The notes under the pieces: generated by a model
Databases searched by the model: none
Told to the model about the DNA's origin: nothing
Seen by the model: only the letters and a program-made list of their open reading frames with translations
Source: a bacterium
GTDB taxonomy: Bacteria > Planctomycetota > Planctomycetia > Planctomycetales > Planctomycetaceae
DNA: 64,000 nucleotides
Reading direction: 5' to 3'
Assembly (NCBI GenBank): GCA_016125225.1
Contig: WGME01000003.1
Location: forward strand, 62,001-126,000
Part shown: positions 15,319 through 62,168 of the stretch, piece by piece
How the letters are laid out: the number at the start of each line of letters is the position of its first letter
Numbering within the stretch: position 1 is the stretch's first letter
Made by a program: the position numbers and the translations under genes

Positions 15319-17829
15319 ATGGGATCGACCGGCGAAACCCTGCGAAACCTGCTAACCTTGGCGTGGCTATTGCCGCTCATTGGGTTTTTGGTCGAAATCT
15401 ACGCGCTCTGCTGGACGCATCGTCTCAGCAAAGCCCCGGCTTATCTGGCTGTCGGTTGCATCGCGGCGGGTTTTGTCTGCAGCTTCACCGCCCTGATGAC
15501 TTGGGGTGTGCAGACCGATTGGGTGGTCTTTCAATCGACGCATCACGACGAACATCATGAGGGTGACCATCACGGCGAGCAACACCACGCTGATGAGCAT
15601 GATGCCGAGACGGCTCACGTGGCTGAACCTGCAAAAACCGACGAACATCATAAACACGCCGAGAAGGCCGTAGCGTCAGCCCCTGCCGATGCTTTGGCTG
15701 CCACCCATGCAGATCATGCCGCGGAACATGGTGACGGGCACTCGGAAGAGCATGCGGCCAAGCCCACCGTCTTTGCCGGGACGTTTTACAATCTCGGCAG
15801 CTTTGGCCCGCTGAAAATCTCGCTCGACTGGTACATCGACAGCCTCACTCTGGTGATGTTCACCATGGTGACCTTCATCGCCACCTGCATCCATATCTTC
15901 GCGATGGGCTACATGCAGGATGAACTGACCGAAGATTATGTCGATCACGAAGTGCACCTCGCGAATCATGAGCACTTTCATCGACCGGGGCGGTTCTATC
16001 GGTTCTTCTCGTTCCTGTCGCTGTTCTGCTTCTCGATGCTGGGCCTCGTACTCGCCGGGAACATTTTCCAGGTCTTCATCTTCTGGGAACTGGTCGGTGT
16101 CTGCAGTTACCTGCTGATCGGCTTTTATGTCGAACGCAAATCAGCCAGCACAGCCGCCAACAAAGCCTTCATCATGAACCGTGTGGGAGACTTTGGTTTC
16201 CTCATCGGGCTCATGATCATCTGGACTTCGCTGGGAACGTTCCAATTTTTCGATTCGGTTGATGCGGAAGGGCACACCAGCCAGGTCGGTCTGTTCCACC
16301 TCATTCGCGGGACGACAGGCGAAATGCAGTTGTCCGCCGATGGTCAACAGGTGCTGCTGCAGAACGAAGTCGGCGAACTGCTGACTGCTGGTGAGAATCT
16401 CCGCTCGATTCCTTACTGGCTGCTGGTGACGGCAGGCCTCGGGATTTTCGCGGGCTGCATCGGCAAGAGTGCACAGTTCCCGCTGCAGACCTGGTTGCCC
16501 GACGCGATGGAAGGCCCCACGCCGGTTTCCGCGTTGGTGCACTCCGCCACGATGGTGGCCGCCGGGGTCTATCTCGCGGGGCGATTCTATCCGGTCTTCA
16601 CTCCGGAAGTGCTGCTCGTTATTGCGTACATTGGCTGCATCACGTTGTTCCTCGCCGCGACCATCGCTGTTGTCGCGACCGACATCAAGAAAGTGCTAGC
16701 CTACTCGACCATAAGTCAACTTGGCTACATGATGCTGGGCATTGGCGTCGGCGGTTGGGGAGCCGGTTTGTTCCACCTCGTGACCCATGCCTTCTTTAAG
16801 TCGCTGTTGTTCCTGTGTTCCGGCAGCGTGATTGCCGGTTGCCATCACGAACAAGATATGCGGAAGATGGGCGGGCTGTGGAAAAAGATGCCCATCACAG
16901 CCGCCACCATGCTGGTGGGTGTGATCGCGATTGCCGGTCTGGCCATTCCCGGCAGTCAGGCAGTTCTCGGCGAAACGTTCGCCTTCTCGGGCTTCCACTC
17001 GAAGGATGCCATCGTCGCGACCGCCTTGGCTTACACCAAACTCAATGCCGTGCATGGCCTGCTCTTTCTGGCACCGTTAGTGACTGCGGGAATCACCGCG
17101 TTCTACATGTTCCGCTTGTGGTTCATGACCTTCGCTGGTGCTCCGCAAGATGAACATGTTTACGACCATGCCCATGAAAACCCCGCCGTCATGACCGGGC
17201 CGTTGTTGGTCCTGTCACTGCTTGCCGCCACCTGTGCCATCGGCGGTGAGAGTGGCCCGCTCTACAAGCTGCTTGCGTTGAGTGAAGCCGTTCCGGCTGG
17301 AGCTTCAACGGCTCCCTCCAGCCCGGTCACGATTGTGCTTCCGACGCATGGCCAGGTGCATGCCGTCCATGCCACTGCCGGGAAATTTGCCTTGCTGGCA
17401 GCCGGACTGGGAACGCTGGTGGCTTATCTGCTGTATTGCCGCAAAGCGTTGAACCCCGCGGAAATTGGCCGTCAGTTTTCGGGAGTCTATGGCTTCCTGG
17501 TCGATAAGTGGCGGTTTGATGAACTGTACGACTTCCTGTTTGTCAAACCGGCGCACAGTGTCGGCCGTTGGTGCCAGGGCTTCGATAAGGTCGTGCTCGA
17601 TGGAGTCTTGCATGGGGCCTCATCGCTGGTGATGCTGGTCTCCACCTGGGATCGCTGGTTCGATGAACGCATGATTGACGGTCTGGTGAACCTGGTCGGG
17701 CAAGTCACCGGACAAGCGGGCCGGTCGTTACGCGTGGTCCAGACCGGCCACTTACGACAATACGTGATGTGGATCGCCGTGGGAGTGGTTGTGCTCTTCG
17801 CCGCGTTGTTCACGGCACTGCCGAAATAA
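15319..17829 (+). CDS. nuoL: NADH-quinone oxidoreductase subunit L with His-rich insertion
   Basis: An 836-residue antiporter-like subunit, far longer than the usual 610-650. The core is intact: WELVGVCSYLLIGFY with the channel Glu, GKSAQFPLQTWLPDAMEGPT with the central Lys, HSATMVAAGVYL, and the C-terminal lateral helix region. The extra length is partly an 18-histidine, acidic segment at residues 75-146 (15541-15756) between the first and second helices, which faces the periplasmic side in known structures. NuoL carries one of the four proton channels. It is followed by nuoM. Confidence 0.95.
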   Translation: MGSTGETLRNLLTLAWLLPLIGFLVEIYALCWTHRLSKAPAYLAVGCIAAGFVCSFTALMTWGVQTDWVVFQSTHHDEHHEGDHHGEQHHADEHDAETAHVAEPAKTDEHHKHAEKAVASAPADALAATHADHAAEHGDGHSEEHAAKPTVFAGTFYNLGSFGPLKISLDWYIDSLTLVMFTMVTFIATCIHIFAMGYMQDELTEDYVDHEVHLANHEHFHRPGRFYRFFSFLSLFCFSMLGLVLAGNIFQVFIFWELVGVCSYLLIGFYVERKSASTAANKAFIMNRVGDFGFLIGLMIIWTSLGTFQFFDSVDAEGHTSQVGLFHLIRGTTGEMQLSADGQQVLLQNEVGELLTAGENLRSIPYWLLVTAGLGIFAGCIGKSAQFPLQTWLPDAMEGPTPVSALVHSATMVAAGVYLAGRFYPVFTPEVLLVIAYIGCITLFLAATIAVVATDIKKVLAYSTISQLGYMMLGIGVGGWGAGLFHLVTHAFFKSLLFLCSGSVIAGCHHEQDMRKMGGLWKKMPITAATMLVGVIAIAGLAIPGSQAVLGETFAFSGFHSKDAIVATALAYTKLNAVHGLLFLAPLVTAGITAFYMFRLWFMTFAGAPQDEHVYDHAHENPAVMTGPLLVLSLLAATCAIGGESGPLYKLLALSEAVPAGASTAPSSPVTIVLPTHGQVHAVHATAGKFALLAAGLGTLVAYLLYCRKALNPAEIGRQFSGVYGFLVDKWRFDELYDFLFVKPAHSVGRWCQGFDKVVLDGVLHGASSLVMLVSTWDRWFDERMIDGLVNLVGQVTGQAGRSLRVVQTGHLRQYVMWIAVGVVVLFAALFTALPK

Positions 17830-17905
17830 GTTTCAGAGATCAAGTTCGGGTTCATGCCTGCAGATTCCGGCGGAATCGCAGGATGTAGAAAGATCGGGAG
17901 CAGAG

Positions 17906-19525
17906 ATGGTCAGTCCGGAGCTGCTGTTGACGGCGGTGGTTTTCCTGCCGACGCTGTGGGCGCTCTTCACGGCGTTTTTTGAGCCCAAAGCCACCGAGGC
18001 CATTCGGTACTTCGGGTTGTTCGGTACGGCTTTGACGTTCGTGCTGACCTTGATTGTCCTGTGGCAGTTCAATCCGGAACTCGATGTCAAGGAAACCCAC
18101 GCGGGTTACCAGATGTGGTTCCAGATGCCTTGGGTGCCCGACTGGAACGTCAATTACTCCATGGGGGTTGATGGCATCAGCCTGCCACTGGTTGTGCTGA
18201 CCGGCCTGATCAGCTTCCTGGCAATGCTCGCCAGCTGGAGCATCGAAAAGCATGTGAAGGGTTATGTCATCCTGTTTCTGCTTCTGGAAACCGGGATGCT
18301 GGGCGTCTTTCTGGCGCTCGACTTCTTCCTGTTCTACATCTTCTGGGAAGTGATGCTGCTGCCGATGTACTTCCTCATCGGTATCTGGGGTGGACCGCGA
18401 CGCGAATATGCCGCCATCAAGTTCTTCCTGTACACACTGGCGGGGGGCGTGCTGATGCTCATCGCCATGCTGATGCTCTACTTCAACAGCGGCCGCAGCT
18501 TCGATCTGATCACGCTCGCGGAGATCGGTCAGGGAAATATCGCTGAGTACGTCTTCAGCCCGACGTTCCAGATTGCGGCCTTCATCCTGCTGTTCATTGG
18601 GTTTGCGATTAAGCTGCCGGCCTTCCCGTTCCATACCTGGTTGCCCGATGCTCACGTCGAAGCTCCGACACCCATCAGCATGATTCTGGCGGGAGTGCTC
18701 CTGAAGATGGGGGGCTACGGCATCCTGCGGATTGCCTTCCCCATCTGCCCCTATGGTGCCCAGTACTGTGCCTACGGCATCGTGGCTCTCGGAGTCTTCA
18801 GCATCATTTATGGAGCCTTTGCGGCTCTCGCTCAGACCGACTTCAAGCGGCTGGTCGCCTACAGCTCGGTCAGCCACATGGGTTATGTGCTGCTGGGGAT
18901 GGGCGTCTGGAAGATCAGCGAAAACGCTGATGACGCGGTGTATTACTGGCAGATGGGCGTGAGTGCGGCCATGTTCCAGATGATCGCCCACGGCATCTCA
19001 TCAGCGGGCATGTTCTTTATGGTGGGTGTGCTCTATGACCGCGTGCATCACCGCGATCTGAATAAGTTTGGTGGCATCGCCGGTTTGATGCCGCAGTACA
19101 CGGGCATTGCCGCCGTGTTGTTCTTCGCAGGTCTGGGATTGCCGGGGCTGTGCGGCTTCATCGGTGAAGTCTTTACCGTCCTCAGCGCCTGGCAGTACGA
19201 CCATATGCTGGCGATCATTGCTGCCGGTGGGGTGATTCTGACCGCCGGTTACATCCTGTGGACCATTCAGCGAGTTTACTTTGGCCCCAGCTACAAGGGT
19301 CCGCATGCGGAAGCCATCGTACCGGCGAACAGCCGCGAGTTGCTGGTAGGGTATGTGCTGCTGGCATTTGCGATTCTGTTCGGCGTCTGCCCGAACCTGC
19401 TGTTTTACGAGATGAATCCCACCATTGAACGGTTCGTCCATCAGGTCGATGCCGGTTACGACAAAGCACTCGAACAGTTGCAGGCCGCTCCTCCGGAAGG
19501 TGTTGAGACCACTTGGATTCCCTAG
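17906..19525 (+). CDS. nuoM: NADH-quinone oxidoreductase subunit M
   Basis: About 539 residues, a normal length for this antiporter-like subunit with 14 helices. Signature stretches are FYIFWEVMLLPMYFLIGIWG, IKLPAFPFHTWLPDAHVEAP and YSSVSHMGYVLLGM. The frame is open back to 17789, inside nuoL, but ATG 17906 has GGGAG 5 nt upstream and gives the proper first helix, SPELLLTAVVFLPTLWALF. Confidence 0.96.
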   Translation: MVSPELLLTAVVFLPTLWALFTAFFEPKATEAIRYFGLFGTALTFVLTLIVLWQFNPELDVKETHAGYQMWFQMPWVPDWNVNYSMGVDGISLPLVVLTGLISFLAMLASWSIEKHVKGYVILFLLLETGMLGVFLALDFFLFYIFWEVMLLPMYFLIGIWGGPRREYAAIKFFLYTLAGGVLMLIAMLMLYFNSGRSFDLITLAEIGQGNIAEYVFSPTFQIAAFILLFIGFAIKLPAFPFHTWLPDAHVEAPTPISMILAGVLLKMGGYGILRIAFPICPYGAQYCAYGIVALGVFSIIYGAFAALAQTDFKRLVAYSSVSHMGYVLLGMGVWKISENADDAVYYWQMGVSAAMFQMIAHGISSAGMFFMVGVLYDRVHHRDLNKFGGIAGLMPQYTGIAAVLFFAGLGLPGLCGFIGEVFTVLSAWQYDHMLAIIAAGGVILTAGYILWTIQRVYFGPSYKGPHAEAIVPANSRELLVGYVLLAFAILFGVCPNLLFYEMNPTIERFVHQVDAGYDKALEQLQAAPPEGVETTWIP

Positions 19526-19601
19526 GGTTCGGGTGATTTCAGCCGGGTTGGTACAGCACGAATGAACGATTGCGAAAGCTGTCAGGGAAAGTAGCCAGAC
19601 T

Positions 19602-21236
19602 GTGTTTTCCACACTGCTCAATCAGATTCTCAGTGATTCCACGGGTCAGCCGTTCGGATCGCTGCAGCTCTTTGGCCCGGAACTGACCCTGTCGGCCGGG
19701 ATCGTGCTGATGCTGCTGGCCCGGTTGTGCGGCATCGATCGGCGGTTGCCCACACACTGGATCGCTTTGTGGATGACCTTCATCGCGTTCTCGCTGGGTG
19801 TGTTCCAGTTTGTCGAGTTCAGCCGTTCCGACCTGGGTACTGTCGAATACTTCTCCGGCCTGATGGTGTTTGACCGTTTCAGCGCTCTCTTCCGCCTCGG
19901 TCTGCTGCTGTTTCTGATTTTCACTATCACCCTGACCGTCATCAGCGGGATTCCGGATCGCGATGATGCCCCCGATTTCTATTCTCTGCTGATGGGAGCT
20001 TCCGTCGGCATGCTGCTCATGGGCGGGGCCAATCATCTGCTCATGCTGTTCCTCGGTGTGGAAATGTCGAGCGTGCCCAGCTATGCGATGGTGGGCTTCC
20101 TGAAAGGTCGCAAAGCCAGCAGCGAAGCCGCATTGAAGTTTGTTGTTTACGGGGCCGGGGCGGCTGGTGTCATGCTGTACGGTATCAGCCTGATCGCCGG
20201 ACTCTTGGGAACCGCCGAGTTTCCCCAGATTGCGATTCAGTTGCAGACCCTGTTCGCCGGCGAGTCGGCCGCGTTGTCGAACCCGGCGATTCGTCTGTTG
20301 ATGCTGGGTATTCTGATGTTGCTCGTCGGGTTCGCCTTCAAGCTGTCGGTCGTCCCGTTCCACTTCTGGACGCCGGACGTCTTTCAAGGGGCCTCGGCTG
20401 AAGTCGGTGGCTTCCTGAGCGTGGCCTCAAAGTCCGCCGCGTTCGTGTTGCTGGTGCGAACGGTGCTGGCATTTGTCACTCCGGCGTCGTCGGCAGATCT
20501 CGGCCAGATTTATCTGACCCTGGGGCTGGGCATCGGTGTCATTGCGGCCATCACGGCGACCTTTGGTAATTTGGCGGCTTACTCGCAGACCAATATGAAA
20601 CGGCTGCTCGCCTATTCGACGATTGCCCATTCCGGGTACATGCTGATGGCGATTGCCGCACTGATTGTGCTGCGGGCGGGTCTCGAGCCGGGGTCAACTG
20701 GGTACGACGACCGATGCGCCCGTGCGGTGGAAGGCTTGCTGTACTACCTCGCCGTCTACTTCTTCATGAACCTGGGGGCCTTTGCTATTACGGCACTTAT
20801 TCGCAACGAGACGTTCAGCGAGGAAATCGAAGATTATGCAGGCTTGGGTTTTCAGGCTCCCATCTTGGCGATTGGCATGGGGATGTGCCTGTTCAGTCTC
20901 GTCGGGCTGCCTCCGCTCGGGGGCTTCGTCGGCAAGCTCTTTATCTTCGCCGCGGTTTATGACTCCGGATTTGTGCATCCGCTGATGTGGGGTATTTTGG
21001 CAATTGGTGGTCTGAACACCGTCTTCAGTCTGTTCTATTACATCCGCGTGATGAAAACGATGTACCTGCAGGAACGTCCGGCGACGGCACGGGCACTGCG
21101 CGTGCCTGCCTGGTCATACTCAGGGGCCTTTGTTTTGATCCTGACGCTGCCCCTGCTGTTGCCGTTGGGGACTGCCGTGCAACTGGTGAGTGGCGTGGCG
21201 AAACGGGCCGCGATGTCTCTGTTTGCCGGCCTGTAG
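19602..21236 (+). CDS. nuoN: NADH-quinone oxidoreductase subunit N
   Basis: A 544-residue third antiporter-like subunit. Recognisable parts are LGVEMSSVPSYAMVGF, FAFKLSVVPFHFWTPDVFQG with the conserved Lys and the TPD motif, and YSTIAHSGYMLMAIAAL. The start is GTG at 19602, with AGGGAAA about 12 nt upstream; no ATG gives a better N-terminus. It closes the nuoHJKLMN block; no further nuo gene follows. Confidence 0.95.
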   Translation: MFSTLLNQILSDSTGQPFGSLQLFGPELTLSAGIVLMLLARLCGIDRRLPTHWIALWMTFIAFSLGVFQFVEFSRSDLGTVEYFSGLMVFDRFSALFRLGLLLFLIFTITLTVISGIPDRDDAPDFYSLLMGASVGMLLMGGANHLLMLFLGVEMSSVPSYAMVGFLKGRKASSEAALKFVVYGAGAAGVMLYGISLIAGLLGTAEFPQIAIQLQTLFAGESAALSNPAIRLLMLGILMLLVGFAFKLSVVPFHFWTPDVFQGASAEVGGFLSVASKSAAFVLLVRTVLAFVTPASSADLGQIYLTLGLGIGVIAAITATFGNLAAYSQTNMKRLLAYSTIAHSGYMLMAIAALIVLRAGLEPGSTGYDDRCARAVEGLLYYLAVYFFMNLGAFAITALIRNETFSEEIEDYAGLGFQAPILAIGMGMCLFSLVGLPPLGGFVGKLFIFAAVYDSGFVHPLMWGILAIGGLNTVFSLFYYIRVMKTMYLQERPATARALRVPAWSYSGAFVLILTLPLLLPLGTAVQLVSGVAKRAAMSLFAGL

Positions 21237-21289
21237 CCATTCGTTGAATCTCGCTTTTGTCCGCATGTGAAACATGAGAGGTCGCCGCC

Positions 21290-21730
21290 GTGGCAGTCAT
21301 TACCCACGATGCCAAGCTGAATGATCTGCTGGTAGACCTCTGCCACAGTCTGTTGCAGTATGTGGCGGAAACCAGCCCGTGGGCGAAGCAGCCCGAAACC
21401 GCCTTTACGATTGAGAAGCTGGCGGTCCAGCAGCAACGGCACATTTCGCGGTTGGTCGATTTGCTGCAGATGCGTCACTGGACCATCGACTTCGGTACTT
21501 ACCCCAGCGACTTCACCGATCTGCAGTATCTGTCGGTTGAGTTTTTCCTGCCCCGCCTTGTCGCCGCTCAATCCACGCTGGTGGCCGAACTGGACGAAGC
21601 CGTGCATACGTGTGTCGATGATGCCGTTGCTGTCGCGCTGTTGCGAGACATCCTGGCGGGCGAGCAGGATATTCTGACGCAGTTGCAGCAGCTGCATCCG
21701 CAGCCCGCGACTGTTGTCGCTACATCCTGA
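21290..21730 (+). CDS. Ferritin-like helical protein of unknown function
   Basis: A 146-residue all-helical protein starting at GTG 21290, which has GAGAGG 6 nt upstream. Repeated Glu and His positions (FTIEKLAVQQQRHISRLVD, YLSVEFFLPRL, LAGEQDILTQLQQL) suggest a four-helix bundle similar to the ferritin/bacterioferritin fold, but the full set of di-iron ligands was not traced. No role can be assigned. It lies 53 nt after nuoN and 32 nt before tatD. Confidence 0.6.
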   Translation: MAVITHDAKLNDLLVDLCHSLLQYVAETSPWAKQPETAFTIEKLAVQQQRHISRLVDLLQMRHWTIDFGTYPSDFTDLQYLSVEFFLPRLVAAQSTLVAELDEAVHTCVDDAVAVALLRDILAGEQDILTQLQQLHPQPATVVATS

Positions 21731-21762
21731 AACGAATTCTCTTCGGCAGACATGGCTGGGGC

Positions 21763-22569
21763 ATGACCGTCTGGATTGATACCCACTGCCACCTCAATGA
21801 AGAGGCGTTTTCGCCCGACCTGAACGAGGTTGTCGAGCGTGCCGTCGCGGCGGGGGTGCGACCGATGCTGGTCGTCGGCTGTACGCTGGCTTCCAGTCGC
21901 CGGGCCGTCGAACTGGCCTCGCAGTTTCCCAGCCTGTATGCCGCGGTGGGCATCCAGCCCAACTATGTCGCCGAAGCTCAGCCGGGCGATTTCGTGGAAA
22001 TTGAAGAACTGTCTCGGCAACCCAAGGTGGTCGCCATCGGGGAAACCGGTCTCGATCGTTATTGGGACTTTGCCCCCATCGATCTGCAACGCGAGTACTT
22101 CGTCCGGCATATCGAACTCTCTCGTGCCCGCTCCTTGCCGTTTATCGTGCATTGCCGCGAAGCCGAGGCAGACACAGTGGCCGTCCTGCGGGAGCAGGCC
22201 CAACAGGGGCCGTTACAGGGCGTGATGCACTCCTTTTCGGGAGATCTGGAAACGGCGCGGGCCTGCTGGGAACTCGGCCTGTATGTCTCGTTTGCCGGCA
22301 TGGTCACTTTCAAACGGAACGATTCTCTACGGCAGGTCGCCAAGGTAGTTCCGGCGGATCGAATTCTGGTCGAAACCGATTCGCCTTATCTGCTGCCGTC
22401 GCCGGTGAAGAACGATAAAGGCCCGAAGCGCAACGAACCGGCTCATGTGCGATATACGGCCAATCATCTGGCGGAAGTCCGAGGGGTTTCGCAGGAAGAA
22501 TTCGCGGCACAAACCACCGCCAATGCCCGGCGACTCTTCCCCTTCGACGATGTTCATCTGCCGGGATGA
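21763..22569 (+). CDS. tatD: TatD family metal-dependent hydrolase / DNase
   Basis: A 268-residue TIM-barrel amidohydrolase relative. The metal-binding residues are visible: DTHCHL at the N-terminus, AIGETGLDRYWD, FIVHCREAEADT, MHSFSGD and VETDSPYLLPSP. TatD proteins are Mg-dependent 3'-5' exonucleases linked to DNA repair and turnover. The usual length is 255-270. A small unknown gene and the MutL-type operon follow on the same strand. Confidence 0.93.
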   Translation: MTVWIDTHCHLNEEAFSPDLNEVVERAVAAGVRPMLVVGCTLASSRRAVELASQFPSLYAAVGIQPNYVAEAQPGDFVEIEELSRQPKVVAIGETGLDRYWDFAPIDLQREYFVRHIELSRARSLPFIVHCREAEADTVAVLREQAQQGPLQGVMHSFSGDLETARACWELGLYVSFAGMVTFKRNDSLRQVAKVVPADRILVETDSPYLLPSPVKNDKGPKRNEPAHVRYTANHLAEVRGVSQEEFAAQTTANARRLFPFDDVHLPG

Positions 22570-22670: not shown

Positions 22671-23048
22671 ATGCAGTGGCTGAAACATGCCTTTGCGATC
22701 TCACCTGCGGCTGCCTTCACACCGACACAGGCCGAGCACGAACTGGTCGCACGGCTGTGTGTCGAACTCGTTCGTCGAAACCTCACGTTGCCCGCCAGCA
22801 TTCTGCTCGAATCGTTTCGACCGTTGAGCGGGATTGCCACGCAGGCGGTCATCTTCAGCACGCCCTGGTTCGCAACGGTGACTGATACGGCTGGTTTGCA
22901 GACCATCGCTCGTCTGTTGGAACGGCCCGGTGCTGTCGATTGGCTGCTGGAACAGTTGCAGAATGTGGACGATGCCAGCACGGTGACAGCCGTTCGAATG
23001 TCCGGTGACGCTCCACCGCCCCACTCTCCCACCACCTTGACTCACTGA
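22671..23048 (+). CDS. Conserved-looking small protein of unknown function
   Basis: About 125 residues from ATG 22671; the open frame further upstream (to 22566) is not protein-like. It is soluble and helical, with ELVARLCVELVRRNLTLPAS followed by a hydrophobic patch, QAVIFSTPWFATV, and LLERPGAVDWLLEQLQ. No known family or catalytic motif was recognised. It ends 17 nt before the TTG start of the MutL-type gene and may be the first gene of that operon. Confidence 0.65.
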   Translation: MQWLKHAFAISPAAAFTPTQAEHELVARLCVELVRRNLTLPASILLESFRPLSGIATQAVIFSTPWFATVTDTAGLQTIARLLERPGAVDWLLEQLQNVDDASTVTAVRMSGDAPPPHSPTTLTH

Positions 23049-23065: not shown

Positions 23066-24910
23066 TTGACGGAGCAACACGCGAACCAGGCCACCACGCC
23101 AGCCACGGCTCGGGATATCAATCCCGATGCCTTACAGGTGATTCTGGCAACCGATTGCGGCAGTACCACCACCAAGGCCATCCTGATCGAGAAGGTCGAT
23201 GGCGTCTATCGGCAAACGTATCGGGGAGAAGCTCCCACCACAGTCGAAGAACCCGCCGCCGATGTCACCATTGGGGTGATCAATGCCGCCACAGAAGTGG
23301 GTGAGCTGGCAGGGCGGCGGTTGGTCGATGAACACGGCTTGCTCATGCGGCCAGCCCGTGGCCGCGACGGCTGCGATATCTACATCTCCACGTCATCAGC
23401 GGGCGGTGGTCTGCAGATGCTGGTGGGAGGCGTGGTGAAGGAAATGACCGGCGCGAGTGCCCAACGGGCCGCACTGGGTGCCGGGGCCATTGTGATGGAT
23501 GTTCTCGCCGCGAATGACCGCCGCAAGCCGCACGAACAGATCCAGCGGATTCGTGATCTCCGTCCCGACATGATGCTGCTCGCCGGGGGAACCGATGGTG
23601 GCACCACCCGCCATGTGGTGCAACTGGCGGAACTCGTCGCCCCCGCACGGCCACAACCGCGGTTCGGTGGTCAATACCGCATGCCCGTGATCTATGCGGG
23701 GAACAAAGACGCCGCCGGCATGGTGGCCGATGTGCTTGACGCGGTGTGCGATCTTTCCACCGTCCCGAACTTGCGGCCCACGCTGGAGCAGGAAAATCTC
23801 GCCCCGGCACGCGATCGCATTCATGACTTGTTTCTCGAACATGTCATGGCTCACGCGCCCGGATATGACAAGCTGATTGCCTGGGCCGATGCCCCCATCA
23901 TGCCGACACCGGGAGCAGTGGGTGACATTCTGCGGACGATTGCGGAACGGCAGCAGTTGAATGTGGTGGGCGTAGATATCGGCGGTGCTACGACCGACAT
24001 GTTCAGCGTCTTTGATGGTGCGTTCAATCGCACGGTGAGTGCCAATCTGGGCATGAGTTATTCGATTTCGAATGTGTGTGCCGAAGCGACGTTGCCCCAA
24101 ATTCTGCGTTGGGTGCCCTACGATTGCGATGAACGCACTTTGCGGAACCGCGTGAAAAACAAGATGATTCGGCCGACAACCATCCCACAAACCCTCGAGG
24201 CTTTGATCTTCGAGCAGGCCGTCTCCCGCGAGGCACTGCGGTTGGCCTATGTGCAGCATCGGGAATTCGCGGTTGGCTTGTCGGGCGTGCAGCAGCAACG
24301 GTCGGTCGGCGATGCATTCCGTCAGGAAGTCGGGGGCAAATCGCTGGTCGATAATATGCGACTCAATCTGCTCGTGGCTTCAGGCGGCGTCCTGTCACAT
24401 GCTCCCCGGATGGTGCAGACGGCCATGATGCTCATCGATGCTTTTGAGCCGGAAGGGATCACACGGCTGGCGAAGGACAGCATCTTCATGATGCCCCATC
24501 TGGGTGTCCTGGCCCAGGTACATCCTCGCGCGGCGATGGAAGTCTTCGAACGCGACTGTTTGGTTTACTTGGGCACGTGCATCGCGCCGAAGGGGACCGC
24601 CAAGGCGGGGCAGCCACTCTGTCGTTATCGCTTGACCGGCGGGCTGACCGCACAGGGACAGTTGATCGCGGGTGATTTGCTGCGATTGCCGCTGGCGGAT
24701 CAGTCGGCGTGCGAAGTGACCTTGGAACCGTTTGCCGGGTTCGATGTCGGTGCCGGGCCGGGCAAACCGTTGACAGCCCCGGTGCATGGAGGGACGGTGG
24801 GTGTGATCCTCGATGGTCGCGGCCGTCCCTTGCAGTTGCCACACGATCGTGCCCTTGGCCAAACCATCGTCGCGAACTGGAACCGTGCCGTCGAAATGTA
24901 TCCGGAATAA
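23066..24910 (+). CDS. GlmL/MutL-type ASKHA ATPase-like protein
   Basis: A 614-residue protein of the GlmL/MutL family (named after the glutamate mutase accessory protein, not mismatch-repair MutL). The actin/Hsp70-like phosphate loops are clear: LATDCGSTTTKAILIEK near residue 25-40 and VGVDIGGATTDMFSVFDG near residue 300-315. The C-terminal part has LLVASGGVLSHAPRM, an adenosine-loop-like Gly stretch. Start is TTG 23066 with GGGGAG 9 nt upstream; no in-frame ATG precedes the phosphate loop. Known relatives sit beside GlmE/GlmS and may reactivate a B12 enzyme. Here no mutase gene is present; the partners are membrane proteins, so the role must differ. Confidence 0.85.
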   Translation: MTEQHANQATTPATARDINPDALQVILATDCGSTTTKAILIEKVDGVYRQTYRGEAPTTVEEPAADVTIGVINAATEVGELAGRRLVDEHGLLMRPARGRDGCDIYISTSSAGGGLQMLVGGVVKEMTGASAQRAALGAGAIVMDVLAANDRRKPHEQIQRIRDLRPDMMLLAGGTDGGTTRHVVQLAELVAPARPQPRFGGQYRMPVIYAGNKDAAGMVADVLDAVCDLSTVPNLRPTLEQENLAPARDRIHDLFLEHVMAHAPGYDKLIAWADAPIMPTPGAVGDILRTIAERQQLNVVGVDIGGATTDMFSVFDGAFNRTVSANLGMSYSISNVCAEATLPQILRWVPYDCDERTLRNRVKNKMIRPTTIPQTLEALIFEQAVSREALRLAYVQHREFAVGLSGVQQQRSVGDAFRQEVGGKSLVDNMRLNLLVASGGVLSHAPRMVQTAMMLIDAFEPEGITRLAKDSIFMMPHLGVLAQVHPRAAMEVFERDCLVYLGTCIAPKGTAKAGQPLCRYRLTGGLTAQGQLIAGDLLRLPLADQSACEVTLEPFAGFDVGAGPGKPLTAPVHGGTVGVILDGRGRPLQLPHDRALGQTIVANWNRAVEMYPE

Positions 24911-24954
24911 ATTCAGGAAAGACGAACCGTCACCCCTTAATCCCCTGACCCACT

Positions 24955-26088
24955 ATGACCCAGGCTTACACTCCCGGATTGCTGGTTACGCCGTGCTTAT
25001 GGTGGCGGTGTCGTCGCGTGTTACCGGTGACAGGGCGGGTGTTGGTACGTTTGCATCAGCAGGTGACAGCGGAAGAGGTGGTCGCGGAAACGGAAACGCC
25101 GGGTGATGCGATTCCCGTGAATCTGTCGCGCACACTCGGAGTGGCACCGGGGCGAGTGGCATCAACCCTGCTGGTGAACGTGGGCGATGCCGTGGAAGCC
25201 GGTCAGGTAATTGCTCAGTCCGAAGGACTGTTTGGCTGGTTCCCGAAAGAGTATCACTCCCCCATCACCGGCATGTTGGAGTCGGTCTCGGCCATCACAG
25301 GGCAAATGATCATCCGTGGCACGCCGCGAAAAGTCCAGGTGCGGGCTTATCTCGCGGGAGAGGTCACGGAAGTCTTACCCGACGAAGGGGTCACGATCGA
25401 AGCCCATGCCGCTGTGCTCCAGGGCATTTTTGGGATCGGCGGGGAAGCGTATGGCCGCATTCAATTTGTCTGCGCGACACCCGAGGAAGATCTGACGGCC
25501 GATCATCTGCGTCCGGAACATCGTGGCGCGATCATCATCGGCGGACGCCGCATCACTCGCACCGCCGTGGATCGCGCTCGGGAACTGGGCATCTCCGCGT
25601 TGATTGCCGGGGGCATCGACGATCAGGACCTGCGTGAGATTCTCGGCTATGACCTGGGTGTGGCCGTCACCGGTCTCGAAAAACTCGGCTTATCGGTGAT
25701 TATTACCGAAGGCTTTGGTGACATCGCGATGGCCCGGCGAACGTTTGACCTGCTGCGAAGCCTGCAGGGGCAACCCGCGGCGGTCAATGGCACCACACAA
25801 ATCCGTGCGGGTGTGCTGCGGCCGGAAATCATTGTGCCGGTGGTGGCCACTACGGCAGCCCATGCCAGCCGGGAGGGCATCAGTGGGCTGCTGGATGTCG
25901 GGGCTCCTGTCAGGGTGATTCGCGAACCCTACTTCGGTGAACTTGGAGAAGTCACCGGTTTGCCCTCGGAACCGCAATGGCTGGCCTCAGAGTCGAAAGC
26001 CCGCGTGGTGGCCGTGCGACTGAATCGGGGCGAGACGGTGACCGTCCCTCGGGCGAATGTCGAACTCATGGAAGGAGTCGCGACATGA
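24955..26088 (+). CDS. Barrel-sandwich (biotinyl/lipoyl-like) domain protein of unknown function
   Basis: A 377-residue protein. Residues about 65-130 look like a barrel-sandwich hybrid: VNVGDAVEAGQVIAQSEG and EYHSPITGMLESVSAITG follow the pattern of biotinyl/lipoyl or RnfC-type domains, but the usual MKM biotin/lipoyl lysine motif is absent. The rest contains an alpha/beta part, HRGAIIIGGRRITRTAVDRA and ALIAGGIDDQDLREILGYD, that could bind a ligand. No membrane segment is present. It lies 44 nt after the MutL-type gene and overlaps the next gene by 4 nt. A cytosolic adaptor or scaffold is an inference. Confidence 0.7.
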   Translation: MTQAYTPGLLVTPCLWWRCRRVLPVTGRVLVRLHQQVTAEEVVAETETPGDAIPVNLSRTLGVAPGRVASTLLVNVGDAVEAGQVIAQSEGLFGWFPKEYHSPITGMLESVSAITGQMIIRGTPRKVQVRAYLAGEVTEVLPDEGVTIEAHAAVLQGIFGIGGEAYGRIQFVCATPEEDLTADHLRPEHRGAIIIGGRRITRTAVDRARELGISALIAGGIDDQDLREILGYDLGVAVTGLEKLGLSVIITEGFGDIAMARRTFDLLRSLQGQPAAVNGTTQIRAGVLRPEIIVPVVATTAAHASREGISGLLDVGAPVRVIREPYFGELGEVTGLPSEPQWLASESKARVVAVRLNRGETVTVPRANVELMEGVAT

Positions 26089-27296
26089 GGCAAGTTTCAA
26101 AGCTCCTAGTAGCAATCTCATTCACCGCCAGCATGTGGTCGAATGGCGCAGTTGCCGCACCGCGACCGGCGACCGATGTCACGGTGACTGATCGTCCGAA
26201 CGATGCCGGGACCGGCCTCATCGTCAAATGGACGCTCTCACCCGATGATGAGGAATCGGCTGGGGCGAATCGCGTGGTGGTCTACCAAATCTTCCGGCAA
26301 GTGAATGGCAAACCATCGGAAGAACCGGTGGCCAAACTCAACGCAGGCAATAACGAATACAGCGATAGCAATTGCCAATCGGATGCTCACTATCAGTATG
26401 AAGTCGTCGCTGTCGCTGAGGACGGTGAGACATCGGCGATCGCGACCCATGCCGAAAGAATACGCCCGGTCGTCCAATGGTTTGATTCCTCCCGGACCTG
26501 GGTCGCGGTGATCGTCATCTTCGTGTGTGCTGCGGTCATCATCTGCACGGAACTTGCCAAGCATGGCTGGTCGACCTATGTGCGGCCAATTGCGGGACTG
26601 ACCGCGATCGATGAAGCAGTGGGCCGAGCGACCGAAATGGGGCGACCCATGCTGTTCGTGCCCGGCATCATGGATCTCGACGAAATCGAAACCGTGGCGG
26701 GACTCACGATTCTCTCACACGTCGGAGAGAAGGCGGCCGTCTATGACACGCCGGTCGAAGTTCCCACGGCTCGTTCGCTGGTGATGACCGCCGCTCGTGA
26801 AGCGTTGGAAGGTGCGTATCTGGCGGCAGGTCGGACCGAGGGCTTTGATGAAGATCGGGTCTACTATGTGACCGACGAGCAGTTCGGTTATGTCGCTGCC
26901 GTCTGCGGTTGGATGTCGCGCGAGAAACCCGCCGCGTGCTTCTATCTGGGCAAGTTCTTTGCGGAATCGTTAGTGCTTGCCGAAACCGGGAACGCCTGCG
27001 GTGCCATTCAACTGGCGGGGACCGCGGAGTCGGCACAGTTGCCCTTCTTTGTCGCCGCGTGTGACTACACGCTCATTGGTGAAGAGTTGTTTGCGGCATC
27101 GGCTTATCTGTCCGGAGAGCCGCAGCAACTCGGCACACTCAAAGGGCAGGATGTCGGCAAGGTCCTGGCGGTGGTGCTGCTGGTGTGCGGCAGTCTGCTG
27201 GCCACCGGGGCGATGATCAGCGGACGAGATAGTCTTGCCGGTCGTGCCCATGACTACCTGATGGTACATGTCCTGAACAAAGGAGTCGGCGGATGA
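26085..27296 (+). CDS. FnIII-like plus DUF6754-like membrane protein
   Basis: About 403 residues. A signal peptide (LLVAISFTASMWSNGAVAA) leads to an external fibronectin type III-like domain: IVKWTLSPDDEES, then VVYQIFRQVNG and YQYEVVAVAEDGETS. A helix, WVAVIVIFVCAAVIICTEL, leads into a cytosolic domain, TAIDEAVGRATEMGRPMLFV, that resembles DUF6754, and a last helix, VLAVVLLVCGSLLATGAMI. Start ATG 26085 overlaps the preceding stop (ATGA) and has GAAGGAG 7 nt upstream. It links the outer face of the membrane to the cytosolic partners. Function unknown. Confidence 0.75.
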   Translation: MRQVSKLLVAISFTASMWSNGAVAAPRPATDVTVTDRPNDAGTGLIVKWTLSPDDEESAGANRVVVYQIFRQVNGKPSEEPVAKLNAGNNEYSDSNCQSDAHYQYEVVAVAEDGETSAIATHAERIRPVVQWFDSSRTWVAVIVIFVCAAVIICTELAKHGWSTYVRPIAGLTAIDEAVGRATEMGRPMLFVPGIMDLDEIETVAGLTILSHVGEKAAVYDTPVEVPTARSLVMTAAREALEGAYLAAGRTEGFDEDRVYYVTDEQFGYVAAVCGWMSREKPAACFYLGKFFAESLVLAETGNACGAIQLAGTAESAQLPFFVAACDYTLIGEELFAASAYLSGEPQQLGTLKGQDVGKVLAVVLLVCGSLLATGAMISGRDSLAGRAHDYLMVHVLNKGVGG

Positions 27297-27988
27297 GAAA
27301 TGTTGTTCCGCTGGTGATCGCCTTTGTCGCGGGTGTCACTATGATGCTCGCCCTGTTTGTGCCTGTGTTGCAGCCGTTGCAGGAACGCGCTTCGGTCTGG
27401 TTCATCATTCTAGCGGCGATTGCGTTCCTCATCGGGGGGACCAATCTGCTGTTGCATCATGCCCGGAAGATCGCGCAGCAGGAGGCCGGCTGGGGCTTCT
27501 CGGCGGTGACGTTAGTGTCGTTTTTCATCACGGTTTTTGTGGGGCTGGCGAAATGGGGCGTGCCCCCGTCCGATGCCTACCCCAACCATCCGTGGTCGGG
27601 CAACTACATCACCGAAGGAGCCCCCCTTTGGTGGCTCTACCAGTACATTATCGATCCCGTCACTTCGACGATGTTTGCGTTGTTGTCGTTCTATGTGGCC
27701 TCAGCGGCGTATCGCGCGTTTCGTGCCAAGAATACGGAGGCCATGATTCTGCTCGGAACGGCCTTCATCGTCTTGCTCGGGCGGTGCAGTGCCGGCACTT
27801 TCCTGACGAGTTGGGTCCCCGAGTCACTGGAAGCCCTCACCTTCCCAGGAGCGACGGCCGTGATCATGGCGGTCTTCACCACGGCAGGTCAGCGGGCCAT
27901 CATGATCGGCATTTCTCTGGGGGTCGCTGCGATTTCGCTGCGCATCATTCTGGGATTGGACCGCAGTTATCTAGGGGCCGATGAGTAA
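27293..27988 (+). CDS. Polytopic membrane protein of the MutL-type operon (about six helices)
   Basis: A 231-residue protein with helices at VVPLVIAFVAGVTMMLALF, ASVWFIILAAIAFLIGGTN, FSAVTLVSFFITVFVGLA, MFALLSFYVASAAYRAF and two near the C-terminus. A loop, PWSGNYITEGAPLWWLYQYI, lies between helices three and four. No transporter signature was recognised. The start overlaps the stop of the preceding gene by 4 nt, so it is translationally coupled. It is probably an integral part of the same membrane complex. Confidence 0.72.
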   Translation: MRNVVPLVIAFVAGVTMMLALFVPVLQPLQERASVWFIILAAIAFLIGGTNLLLHHARKIAQQEAGWGFSAVTLVSFFITVFVGLAKWGVPPSDAYPNHPWSGNYITEGAPLWWLYQYIIDPVTSTMFALLSFYVASAAYRAFRAKNTEAMILLGTAFIVLLGRCSAGTFLTSWVPESLEALTFPGATAVIMAVFTTAGQRAIMIGISLGVAAISLRIILGLDRSYLGADE

Positions 27989-28038
27989 CCGCACACGCGG
28001 CAAGGAGTGATGACCGGTGAGCAGCAGTGAGACCCGAG

Positions 28039-28899
28039 ATGCTTGATTTCCTGAATCGGCTTGATCGCCGCTGGATCTTTCTGCTGATGGCGTTAGCCGT
28101 TGCGGTGCCGGTGTTGTGCAAGCCGATTTTTCCCGAACAGCCGTCGCCTCTGACCCGGAAATTGTTCGATACCATCGAAGAGTTGCCGGAAGGGTCGGTG
28201 GTGTATATGGCCTTCGATTACGACCCGCCGTCGCAAGCGGAATTAGGGCCGATGGCGAAGAGCTTTGTGCGTCATTGCTGCCTGAAGAAGCACAAAATGA
28301 TCTTTGCGAATCTCTGGCCCGCCGGTCCGCCGCTGGTGGATGAAAACATCCGCAATGTCGTGAATGGAGAATTTGCGTCGGAGAATTTTGTCTATGGCGA
28401 AGACTACGTCAACCTCGGCTATCGCCCGGGGAATCAGGTCGCCATCACGCAGATTGCAACCGATCTGCGGAAGATCTATCCGACGGATGCCACGGGCAAG
28501 AATCTGGGTGTTCTTCCCCTGACACGATCGTTCAAAAACATCTTCGATGCCGACTTGGTGCTGAATGTCTCCGCGGGTTACCCCGGCTGTAAAGAATGGG
28601 TGCAGTATGCCGGCACCAAGGGCGACTTGAAGATTGGGGCGGGTGTGACTGGCGTGCAGGCACCGCAACTTTTTCCCTACTATCCCGATCAGTTGGTCGG
28701 CATTCTGGCGGCGATCAAAGGGGCCGCGGAATACGAAGCGGCCATCGCTCAAAAGTATCCGCAGTATGCCGATCCGCAAAAGAACGAGGCGATTAAACGC
28801 ATGGGACCGCAGTTGTTTGCCCACTTGTTGATGCTGGCCCTGATTGTGCTGGGGAATGTTGTGCATGTGGCGAACCGTCGTCGGGGAGGCGTGCGATGA
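28039..28899 (+). CDS. Membrane-anchored extracytoplasmic protein of the MutL-type operon
   Basis: About 286 residues: an N-terminal helix, RRWIFLLMALAVAVPVLC, a soluble domain of about 215 residues, and a C-terminal helix, LLMLALIVLGNVVHVANR. With two helices flanking it, the middle domain probably lies outside the membrane. It contains LPEGSVVYMAFDYDPPSQAE and VLNVSAGYPGCKEW, without a known catalytic motif. GTG 28027 is an in-frame alternative start. It lies about 50 nt behind the previous gene and overlaps the next by 4 nt. Unknown function. Confidence 0.7.
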   Translation: MLDFLNRLDRRWIFLLMALAVAVPVLCKPIFPEQPSPLTRKLFDTIEELPEGSVVYMAFDYDPPSQAELGPMAKSFVRHCCLKKHKMIFANLWPAGPPLVDENIRNVVNGEFASENFVYGEDYVNLGYRPGNQVAITQIATDLRKIYPTDATGKNLGVLPLTRSFKNIFDADLVLNVSAGYPGCKEWVQYAGTKGDLKIGAGVTGVQAPQLFPYYPDQLVGILAAIKGAAEYEAAIAQKYPQYADPQKNEAIKRMGPQLFAHLLMLALIVLGNVVHVANRRRGGVR

Positions 28900-29759
28900 C
28901 GCGTGAATTGATGATCTCGTGGTTCCTGCTGATTGCGGGCGGTATTGGGCTTGTCGTATTGTCGGCCACATCGGAAAAGGGTGTCGGGACGATTTATGTC
29001 AAACCCGTCCCCGCCGCGAATCAGGTACAGACTTGGACCGAGACTCAGCGAACCGACTCCGCGGCCGTGTTCAGTCCCTATCGCACGGCGGGTGTGTGGC
29101 TGGCAGCCTTTCTCACTCTCGCCGTCTTTTCGTACCTTTATAAAGACAACGTCTTCTACAAGCTCGCGGAATCGATGATCGTGGGCGTCTCGGCTGGCTA
29201 TTACCTGGTGGCCAACTTCTGGGATTCGATCGTCGCCTTGTTGATGACGGAACTGACGCCGCAACTGGTGAGGAATTGGGCATTGCCGAGTTTGTCGGAA
29301 ACCAAGACGGTTGATCCGTGGTTCCTGGTTCCGCTGGTTCTCAGCCTGTTCCTCTTTTGCCGCTTCGTGCCGCGGCTGAGCTGGCTGGCCCGTTGGCCGC
29401 TGGCGTTTGTGGTGGGGACGTTTGCCGGATTGCGGCTGGTTTCGATTCTCGATGCCGATTTCATCAGCCAGATCCGCAGTACGATTGTGCCATTGATTGT
29501 CCTCACCAATGGTTCGTTCAATGTCTGGGCGTCGATCAGAAATCTCGGATTGTTATTGAGCGTGGTGACCTGTTTGGCGTACTTTTTCTTCTCGGTGCCT
29601 CACCAGGGCCTGTTTGGTAAAGTCTCCCGTGTCGGCGTGTGGGTGCTGATGATTACCTTTGGTGCTTCGTTTGCCTTCACGGTGATGGGCCGCATCACTT
29701 TGCTGACCCGTCGCTTTGAGTTCCTGTTCATCGATTGGCTGCGACTGATTGATCCGTAA
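28896..29759 (+). CDS. Polytopic membrane protein closing the MutL-type operon
   Basis: A 287-residue protein with about eight helices, beginning [19 protein letters not shown] and including [53 protein letters not shown] and [18 protein letters not shown]. The loop [20 protein letters not shown] follows the first helix. No known family was recognised. The start overlaps the preceding stop by 4 nt. The heptamer repeat at 29789-29823 follows and may mark the operon end. Confidence 0.7.
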
Positions 29760-29788: not shown

Positions 29789-29823
<35 letters not shown>

Positions 29824-29827
29824 ACCC

Positions 29828-61265: not shown

Positions 61266-62168
61266 ATGCCAACGTTGACTCGCCGCACGTTTCTGCAATC
61301 GTCTGCTGTGGCTGCTGCTGGCATGGGTTTGGGATGGGGCATGCAGCCCAACCGCTTGAGCGCTGCGGAAAAGAAGGGGGCCAATCTCCAGTATGGGTTA
61401 GTGACCTATCAATGGGCCAAAGACTGGGATCTGCCCACGCTCATCGAGAATTGCACGACGGCGAATGTGCATGGCGTGGAATTGCGGACCACACACAAAC
61501 ATGGGGTGGAACCCACGCTCTCTGCGGACCAACGGGCCGAAGTTCGCAACCGGTTTGAAGACAGCCCGGTGAAGTGCGTGGGAATTGGCAGTGATGAGCG
61601 GTTTGACAATCCCGATCCAGCGAAGGTCCAGCAGGCGATCGCGGCTTCCAAGGCGTTCATCGAACTCAGCCACGACATTGGCGGCAGCGGCGTGAAGGTG
61701 AAGCCGGACCGCTTCTGGCCCGATGTGCCTCAGGAGAAGACGATCGAACAGATTGGCAAGTCGCTGAATGAACTCGGCGAGTTTGCGGAAGGCTTCGGTC
61801 AGCAGGTGCGTCTGGAAGTGCATGGCCAATGTGCCGAACTGCCCACCATCGCCGCGATCATGCAGGTCGCCGACCATCCTTCGGTGGGCGTGTGCTGGAA
61901 TTCCAACCCGCAGGATCTGAAGGGAGGAGGGCTCGAACACAACTTCAACCTGGTGAAAGACCGGTTTGGTTCGACCGCCCACATTCATCTGCTGGAGATG
62001 CCGGAATATCCGTTCGCGAAACTGCTTGATCTGTATGTCGGCATCGACTTCAACGGCTGGCTGATGCTCGAAGAAGGCAAGGTTCCCGCCGACCCGGTGG
62101 CAGAACTCGCGAAGCAACGCATCCTGTTCGACAAAATGCTGGCGGAAGCCCGCGCGCGGGTCGGGTAG
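61266..62168 (+). CDS. Tat-exported sugar phosphate isomerase/epimerase-like TIM barrel
   Basis: A 300-residue protein of the xylose-isomerase-like barrel family. The N-terminus LTRRTFLQSSAVAAAGMGLG is a Tat signal (twin Arg with hydrophobic stretch), so it acts in the periplasm. Barrel signatures include VHGVELRTTHKHGVEP, VRLEVHGQCAELPTIAAIMQ, VGVCWNSNPQDL and HIHLLEMPEYPF with metal-ligand His/Glu. ATG 61266 has GGAG upstream; the frame extends to 61173. The substrate is likely a sugar or inositol derivative. Confidence 0.85.
   Translation: MPTLTRRTFLQSSAVAAAGMGLGWGMQPNRLSAAEKKGANLQYGLVTYQWAKDWDLPTLIENCTTANVHGVELRTTHKHGVEPTLSADQRAEVRNRFEDSPVKCVGIGSDERFDNPDPAKVQQAIAASKAFIELSHDIGGSGVKVKPDRFWPDVPQEKTIEQIGKSLNELGEFAEGFGQQVRLEVHGQCAELPTIAAIMQVADHPSVGVCWNSNPQDLKGGGLEHNFNLVKDRFGSTAHIHLLEMPEYPFAKLLDLYVGIDFNGWLMLEEGKVPADPVAELAKQRILFDKMLAEARARVG

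Follow-up and report, generated by a model that had tools for sequence, protein, structure and literature searches.

A conserved MutL-DUF6754 gene set in Planctomycetota and other phyla, and its recurrent linkage to peptide-type ABC transporter genes

Gene content of the locus

We analysed a locus in the planctomycete contig WGME01000003.1 (assembly GCA_016125225.1; the 64,000 nt stretch from position 62,001 to 126,000 is referred to as the window), in which a MutL-type protein of the ASKHA family, a cytosolic barrel-sandwich protein (BSH) and four membrane proteins, designated the DUF6754 protein, TM6, OUT and TM8 and collectively the tetrad, are encoded one after another. Other genomes and loci are identified by G and L numbers, G000 being the genome of the window. 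The six reading frames are packed on a single strand (Table 1), with 4-nt ATGA-type overlaps at the BSH/DUF6754, DUF6754/TM6 and OUT/TM8 junctions, confirming the three overlaps described in a first-pass annotation of the sequence. That annotation had proposed a six-gene operon; the six genes are as described, but a seventh gene, c0, was missed, which begins at an ATG and ends 17 nt upstream of the MutL TTG start. An OppDF-type ABC ATPase gene begins 17 nt (TTG) or 68 nt (ATG) downstream of TM8, on the same strand. Only two of the seven genes of the set could be assigned to a Pfam family with confidence, and in both cases the family name gives no clue to function.

Table 1. Positions in the window of the gene set and the adjoining transporter gene
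Feature	Position	Strand	Basis and remarks
c0, 125-amino-acid protein, seventh gene	22671..23048	+	model built from relatives, 119.8 bits
MutL-type ASKHA protein	23066..24910	+	PF13941, 413 bits; TTG start, possible alternative start near 23138
BSH, cytosolic barrel-sandwich protein with KOW-like C-terminal part	24955..26088	+	profile matches of relatives
DUF6754 membrane protein	26085..27296	+	PF20539, 386 bits; structure model; charge topology
Parts of the DUF6754 protein, in order: signal peptide, outer FnIII domain, membrane helix TM1, cytosolic alpha/beta domain, membrane helix TM2 (predicted)	FnIII ~26151-26477; alpha/beta ~26562-27119	+	model, fold, charges
TM6, six membrane helices, both ends predicted inside	27293..27988	+	hydropathy and loop charges
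OUT: TM1, predicted outer Rossmann-like alpha/beta domain, TM2	28027..28899	+	structure model; start GTG 28027 or ATG 28039
TM8, polytopic membrane protein	28896..29759	+	conserved family, 39 aligned rows
OppDF-type double ABC ATPase, peptide/nickel transporter family	29777 (TTG) or 29828 (ATG)..31681	+	PF00005 twice plus oligo_HPY

Co-inheritance and gene order across genomes

The gene set is real and old. Its distribution was examined in Planctomycetota, the phylum of the window (245 genomes), and in a second phylum, Fidelibacterota (149 genomes, centred on G258). In the first sample, DUF6754 was found in 61 genomes and OUT in 62, namely the same 61 and G067. A MutL scoring over the cut-off was present in 65 genomes, 56 of which carry DUF6754. 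BSH occurred in 58 genomes, 55 of them with DUF6754. In the second phylum, DUF6754 occurred in 92 genomes and MutL over the cut-off in 97, including every one of the 92. Fisher tests on both co-occurrence tables were extreme, kinship being ignored. Better evidence is provided by G024, in which DUF6754, MutL and OUT lie at approximately 0.29, 0.79 and 3.5 Mb of one contig, together with its same-family relative G152, which lacks all four tested families (DUF6754, MutL, OUT and BSH); because the parts are kept after scattering in one genome yet are jointly absent from the other, they appear to belong together. Twenty of 21 genomes chosen for their DUF6754 loci have MutL, the same 20 have BSH, and G251 has neither. 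Nine Planctomycetota genomes carry MutL without DUF6754: four of these encode glutamate mutase E (G010, G040, G098 and G235), G067 has OUT and BSH, G153 has BSH, G053 has c0 and a further family, c1, beside MutL with a BSH fragment, the MutL match of G073 is partial, and the MutLs of G197 are of other types.

Gene order is also conserved. A DUF6754 protein was found at 80 loci, and all six genes stand together at 31 of the 50 that were long enough to be judged. By their titles, the loci belong to Planctomycetota, Neomarinimicrobiota, Acidobacteria, Gemmatimonadota, Eisenbacteria and Zixibacteria, so that the co-conservation check called for by the first-pass annotation showed the genes to be conserved together far beyond the genus, in several phyla. 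Tandem tetrads occur, two in several Planctomycetota and three in Zixibacteria (L059, L083 and L108, the third being truncated by the contig end in L108), and in the Zixibacteria with three tetrads MutL and BSH are encoded elsewhere in the genome. In the cultured planctomycete Thalassoglobus neptunius KOR42 (L091), the locus holds DUF6754 and BSH, and MutL is found at another place in the genome. Pairwise distances correlate between the families at 0.84-0.95, which probably reflects the species tree and was not used as evidence. No plasmid-borne DUF6754 relatives were found. In a DUF6754 tree the third copies of Zixibacteria group together, as do the second copies; the copy labels are unreliable, since a coverage filter dropped some of the tandem DUF6754 copies. 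In assemblies of ~0.9-1.0 Mb (L231-L234) the order MutL-BSH-c0-DUF6754-TM6-OUT-TM8 is contiguous.

The MutL-type protein

The MutL of the window passes the PF13941 gathering score (413.5 versus 27 bits), but falls below all three NCBIfam cut-offs: the GlmL equivalog NF040745 (210 versus 475 bits), the equivalog NF040744 (Ornithine Or-4 type; 190 versus 600 bits) and TIGR01319. Its description as a GlmL/MutL-type protein is upheld for the family, GlmL itself being only a distant cousin. In the core MutLs, the motif DCGSTTTK, which we take to be the phosphate-1 motif, is invariant at all eight positions in 80 rows, including the cysteine of the loop (80/80), and the presumed phosphate-2 motif DIGGATTD is invariant at seven of eight positions, the last being kept in 91 of 92 rows. 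The window MutL extends ~110 amino acids beyond PF13941 at its C-terminus, and this extension is kept in 92/92 core rows. In a quick tree of 57 rows, from which the MutL of G040 (one of the four beside GlmE) was left out as too short, 42 core MutLs formed one group with support of 98. A branch of 9.8 changes per column with support of 100 split 51 core, fused and third-type MutL rows from the GlmL rows; the three GlmL rows beside GlmE did not form a single clade, and the inner placement of odd rows is unsure because of long branches. The MutLs of the set form a clade far from GlmL.

In some lineages MutL and BSH are fused in a single protein, in two forms, which suggests that the pair acts as one cytosolic unit. 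The window's genome carries one MutL. Elsewhere, two additional MutL-BSH paralogue types occur apart from the tetrad (G169, G124, G139, G248 and G249, loci L172-L178; also L179 and L180). One is a fused type, whose neighbours include MraZ in L176, a UPF0047 gene in L172 and one resembling it in L173; the other, in G011 and G039, is separate. In L179 and L180 the phosphate-1 loop reads DIGSTTTK instead of the DCGSTTTK of the core MutLs.

Topology and conservation of the membrane tetrad

The DUF6754 protein matches PF20539 over its full length (386.4 bits, gathering score 27), and its structure model has a pLDDT of 84.6. The FnIII domain, which the first-pass annotation had recognized together with the DUF6754 likeness, is confirmed by fold (best Z 13.6 over 97 residues, root-mean-square deviation 1.9); FnIII matches filled the list of the fold search of this model, and a profile search of solved structures likewise returned FnIII proteins. 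By eye, the N-termini of DUF6754 proteins resemble signal peptides at most inspected loci, with the FnIII domain following. Lysine plus arginine counts average 4.2 after TM1 and 1.0 before it, and because the positive charges follow TM1 the alpha/beta domain is placed inside. OUT (model pLDDT 93.7) averages 2.5 such residues both before TM1 and after TM2, and as both ends are positive its Rossmann-like domain is placed outside. We therefore predict that the FnIII domain and the alpha/beta domain of OUT face outwards and that the alpha/beta domain of the DUF6754 protein is cytosolic. Hydropathy, charge and the OUT model agree with the earlier description of a six-helix TM6 and of a two-helix OUT with a large outer domain. 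A fold search with OUT gave generic Rossmann-type matches only (best Z 8.6, 143 residues, root-mean-square deviation 3.4, many ties). No convincing match was obtained for BSH, TM6, TM8 or OUT in the profile search of solved structures, and no Pfam or NCBIfam family matched TM6, OUT or TM8 over its cut-off; one of 39 TM8 family members matched DUF5326 at E 0.0028.

Sequence conservation differs between the two faces. In one set of loci, mean identity was 81% for the ASKHA part of MutL and 80% for the cytosolic domain of the DUF6754 protein, 61% for BSH, and 60-63% for TM6, OUT and TM8 (OUT itself 60%); the MutL extension reached 54% and FnIII 30%. An insert in an outer loop of TM6, after residue 95, comprises 373-442 amino acids in nine aligned rows and 100 in a tenth. 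The identity contrast and this insert indicate an inner face that is rigidly conserved and an outer face that is less so. The alpha/beta domains of the DUF6754 protein and OUT contain many invariant polar residues, several of them at strand ends. At L231-L234 (G389, G293, G367 and G379) the DUF6754 proteins have 291 amino acids, which leaves no room for an FnIII domain of normal length.

The models of the DUF6754 protein and OUT have an identical order of elements, and the inner and outer alpha/beta domains of the tetrad are possibly distant paralogues in inverted orientation. Plain profile comparison gave probabilities of 5% and at most 23%, pairing only a membrane helix. In a secondary-structure-aware alignment that included the membrane helices, 0/300 shuffles reached the observed score in a first run and 2/1000 and 12/1000 subsequently; with the soluble domains alone, 70/1000 and 110/1000 did so. 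Homology of the two proteins is a lead only. Homology of TM6 and TM8 was rejected, as 248/1000 shuffles scored at or above the observed value.

BSH and the accessory families c0 and c1

The BSH of the window matches RnfC_N at 22.7 bits, below the Pfam cut-off of 25.6, and misses the NCBIfam cut-offs of rnfC (18.7 versus 245.95 bits) and RsxC (10.3 versus 345). At E 0.01, 34 BSH relatives gave matches to RnfC_N (13), Biotin_lipoyl (14), NQRA_N (4) and KOW (4). The c0 family is the commonest neighbour of the set in other loci (neighbour cluster 0, 29 loci) and its model matches in 84 loci, some from the same genome; in relatives it accompanies MutL or DUF6754, and no Pfam, PHROG or PADLOC match was found for it. 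An eighth family, the membrane protein c1, resembles bPH_6 weakly, scoring 20.3 bits against a cut-off of 22. It lies upstream of c0 in relatives, is present at 40 loci elsewhere and was not found in the window. In two Zixibacteria a secreted-looking protein of ~280 amino acids is encoded between MutL and BSH (L168:2313-3146 and L169:8777-9613), the former with no Pfam match.

Upstream of c0, window positions 17789-22569 hold Proton_antipo_M (NADH dehydrogenase-type) genes, a small open reading frame and TatD; a related gene order was seen in L033 and L035.

Linkage to peptide-type ABC transporter genes

A link to peptide transporters, which goes beyond the first-pass annotation, is a lead that arose from neighbourhoods of the second phylum, where oppA-oppB-oppC lie upstream of MutL and oppD downstream of TM8. 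All open reading frames within 6 kb of core genes were clustered. The clustering covered 131 genome handles (89 Planctomycetota, 31 Fidelibacterota, 4 Gemmatimonadota-like, 3 Acidobacteriota, 2 Eisenbacteria and 2 Zixibacteria), with 159 loci that could be judged; at least two genomes are counted under two handles, and phylum labels were taken from locus titles and sampling, G252 and G253 being titled simply as bacterium. Loci were judged if they reached 3 kb or more past the core on at least one side, and gene calls were crude, being the longest open frames. The four clusters found in the largest number of phyla were OppDF, OppBC, OppA and OppBC; the OppDF cluster includes other ABC ATPases, and 14 of its frames carry an Opp label. 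Next among the clusters that reach three phyla came a MotA/TolQ/ExbB family (5 handles) and two groups of frames that either overlap Opp genes or seem to be spurious.

An Opp-type gene lies within 6 kb of the set in 16/131 handles (G000, G067, G115, G146, G169, G233, G250, G252, G253, G272, G320, G343, G348, G354, G381 and G386). With the same models and thresholds, none was found in 40 control stretches of 19.9 kb (20 per main phylum, from 9 and 7 genomes; Fisher 0.011), in which OppDF scores of 122, 86, 54 and 49 bits stayed under the limit of 170. The arrangements vary. MutL is preceded by oppA-B-C in G343, G348, G272 and G381, and TM8 is followed by oppD(F) in the window, G343, G272, G354, G320, G381 and G386, by oppA onwards to D and F in G115, G146 and G233 (one genus) and by oppA-B-C in G250. 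After BSH come oppA-B-C in G252 and G253 and oppA-B in G067, where the protein after BSH is SBP_bac_5, and in G169 OppDF is placed between two tetrads. The Opp genes lie on the strand of the set, the only exception being the OppDF genes of G252 and G253.

Domain scans of ten Opp-type proteins confirmed nine as SBP_bac_5, BPD_transp_1 or ABC_tran with oligo_HPY; the remaining one (L240:5253-6176) lacks oligo_HPY and is an ABC ATPase of another kind. The window ATPase scores over the NCBIfam cut-off of PRK11308 (552 versus 408 bits) and also over those of NikD, NikE, PRK10419, CntD, CntF and, narrowly, proV, several subfamily cut-offs being passed because both ABC halves are summed; it falls under YejF (594 versus 834 bits) and GsiA. 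The scanned permeases and binding proteins were below every cut-off shown, and no specific substrate is assigned. The OppB-type permease L203:636-2705 (690 amino acids) has a very long N-terminal part, BPD_transp_1 starting at residue 469. CAACCCT-type direct repeats form a short array between TM8 and the ATPase gene of the window, at ~29790-29824.

A possible envelope machine and its alternatives

We propose, with a probability of roughly 0.38, that the set encodes one envelope machine serving a peptide-type ABC importer as an accessory, gate or receiving station. MutL, as an ASKHA ATPase, and BSH would form the cytosolic unit. Its target would be the highly conserved alpha/beta domain on the cytosolic side of the DUF6754 protein, and this protein would make up the membrane part of a physical complex together with TM6, OUT and TM8. 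Hydrolysis of ATP by MutL would switch or reset this part, while the FnIII domain and the alpha/beta domain of OUT, exposed to the outside, may receive a ligand or a loaded binding protein; the importer would be of the OppA-B-C-D-F family and the presumed substrates imported peptides. MutL, BSH and the DUF6754 domain, on the inner face, would be motor and switch, and variable partners or ligands would be met by FnIII, OUT and the TM6 insert on the outer face. The most economical reading is an accessory complex, driven by ATP, that would work with peptide-type importers although its genes do not always adjoin theirs. It draws on the co-inheritance, the gene order, the MutL-BSH fusions, the predicted topology, the conservation contrast of the two faces and the recurrent Opp linkage. 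The first-pass annotation had envisaged a nucleotide-driven cytosolic part docked on a membrane complex with outer sensor or binding domains. Its observation is confirmed and its interpretation partly supported: the MutL-BSH fusions and the predicted outer position of FnIII and OUT favour it, but the DUF6754 protein seems to be more than an outer sensor, because its most conserved part is predicted to be cytosolic; ATP use and docking stay conjectural.

Several observations weigh against the proposed service to importers. No Opp-type gene lies within 6 kb in 115/131 handles (some flanks being shorter), and in Planctomycetota only 6/89 have one, a number explicable by chance on its own, three of the six belonging to one genus. 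Eight of the 16 linked genomes owe their Opp genes or wider flanks to sequence gathered after the first hint, although the match was already present in G250, G252, G253 and G233. The control stretches were hand-picked at round coordinates and none is Gemmatimonadota-like. In G252 and G253 the OppDF gene is 4-6 kb away on the opposite strand, and G153 has MutL and BSH without DUF6754 or OUT. CdsA-type genes adjoin the set more often than Opp genes do (30 handles; CTP_transf_1 in two members of the cluster). This phospholipid link, though conceivable, was not adopted, as 27 of the 30 handles are Fidelibacterota and three Planctomycetota. A fatty-acid/phospholipid link was likewise set aside, downstream plsX and fabH being confined to one Planctomycetota locus group. 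Other phospholipid genes beside the set are PgpA and a CDP-alcohol phosphatidyltransferase in a Zixibacterium (L168:6873-7981) and, in L062, CTP_transf_1 with a lipid-kinase-type gene (DAGK_cat/YegS_C), with look-alikes in L054.

Among the alternatives, it is conceivable, though we consider it rather unlikely, that the tetrad forms a membrane enzyme and MutL-BSH serves it as an ATP-dependent activator or repair chaperone, the Opp neighbours sharing regulation only. GlmL, the cousin of MutL, is thought to serve a B12 mutase in this way and NCBIfam names PF13941 cousins accessory proteins; the invariant polar residues of the two alpha/beta domains would suit an enzyme, and a single MutL-BSH pair can accompany two or three tetrads. 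However, no enzyme family was recognized in the DUF6754 protein or OUT, and the varied Opp arrangements would be left unexplained. It is improbable that MutL powers the tetrad as a transporter or translocation channel in its own right, with incidental Opp adjacency: two polytopic subunits, a candidate cytosolic ATPase and outer domains are what such a channel might have, but Opp genes recur across three phyla and we know of no ASKHA proteins acting as transport motors. A transmembrane sensor, in which the outer FnIII and OUT domains report envelope state or ligands to the cytosolic ATPase, strikes us as slightly less probable again. The variable outer face, with its TM6 insert in nine rows, and the conserved inner face agree with sensing, but the set has no signalling output domain and no nearby regulator recurs in three phyla, a response-regulator-like cluster, judged by eye, being limited to five handles and two phyla.

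The likeness of BSH to the N-terminal domains of RnfC and NqrA (RnfC_N in 13 and NQRA_N in 4 of the 34 relatives), and the Proton_antipo_M genes that lie upstream of the set in the window and close to BSH in G254 (L187), could point to an Rnf/Nqr-like redox complex. We regard this as very unlikely: BSH scores 18.7 against the 246 bits needed for rnfC, and the other subunits match no Rnf/Nqr model. Membership of Rnf/Nqr was rejected on these grounds. That MutL is a B12-mutase activator and the remaining genes passengers is scarcely credible and largely refuted, in spite of its place in PF13941. The absence of glutamate mutase genes beside MutL, remarked on in the first-pass annotation, extends well beyond the window: glutamate mutase E (PF06368) scored over the cut-off in 4/245 genomes, in none of the 61 with DUF6754 and not in G000, the window's genome has no MM_CoA_mutase match, and its two B12-binding domains are in other proteins. 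A B12 mutase was rejected as the partner of MutL on the genome counts, and the separate MutL clade also speaks against it. Phage defence was rejected after PADLOC gave 0 matches for the seven proteins (E 0.01).

If the proposed envelope machine exists, it would provide a role for an orphan MutL branch and for DUF6754, equip a very common family of bacterial importers with an accessory machine that uses ATP, and explain why the set is found in 61/245 and 92/149 genomes of the two phyla. It predicts a role in peptide uptake, an ATPase that the DUF6754 domain stimulates, and Opp components that co-purify with the set. A bolder and doubtful extension is that it represents a new class of envelope machine, in which an ASKHA ATPase, rather than an ABC ATPase, drives a tetrad whose inner and outer faces both carry alpha/beta domains. 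Attached to peptide ABC importers, it would give them a second stage that uses ATP for receiving or gating; such a class would be ancient in several phyla and kept even in ~1 Mb assemblies.

Comparison with known systems

To our knowledge, no described system has this gene make-up, and we know of no PepT-family importer with a MutL-DUF6754 accessory set. A literature search, covering titles and the openings of abstracts, returned nothing on DUF6754, PF13941 or the gene set. The MutL of the set shares the ASKHA family and phosphate motifs with GlmL/MutL (PF13941), but differs in its C-terminal extension, its pairing or fusion with BSH, the absence of GlmE and its long tree branch. The window's DUF6754 protein is a full-length member of PF20539, a family of unknown function. 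BSH has an N-terminal barrel-sandwich domain in common with RnfC and NqrA, whereas the rest of the protein and all of its partners differ. The linked transporter genes, with their SBP_bac_5, BPD_transp_1 and ABC_tran with oligo_HPY domains, belong to the Opp/Dpp/Yej/Gsi importers of the PepT family.

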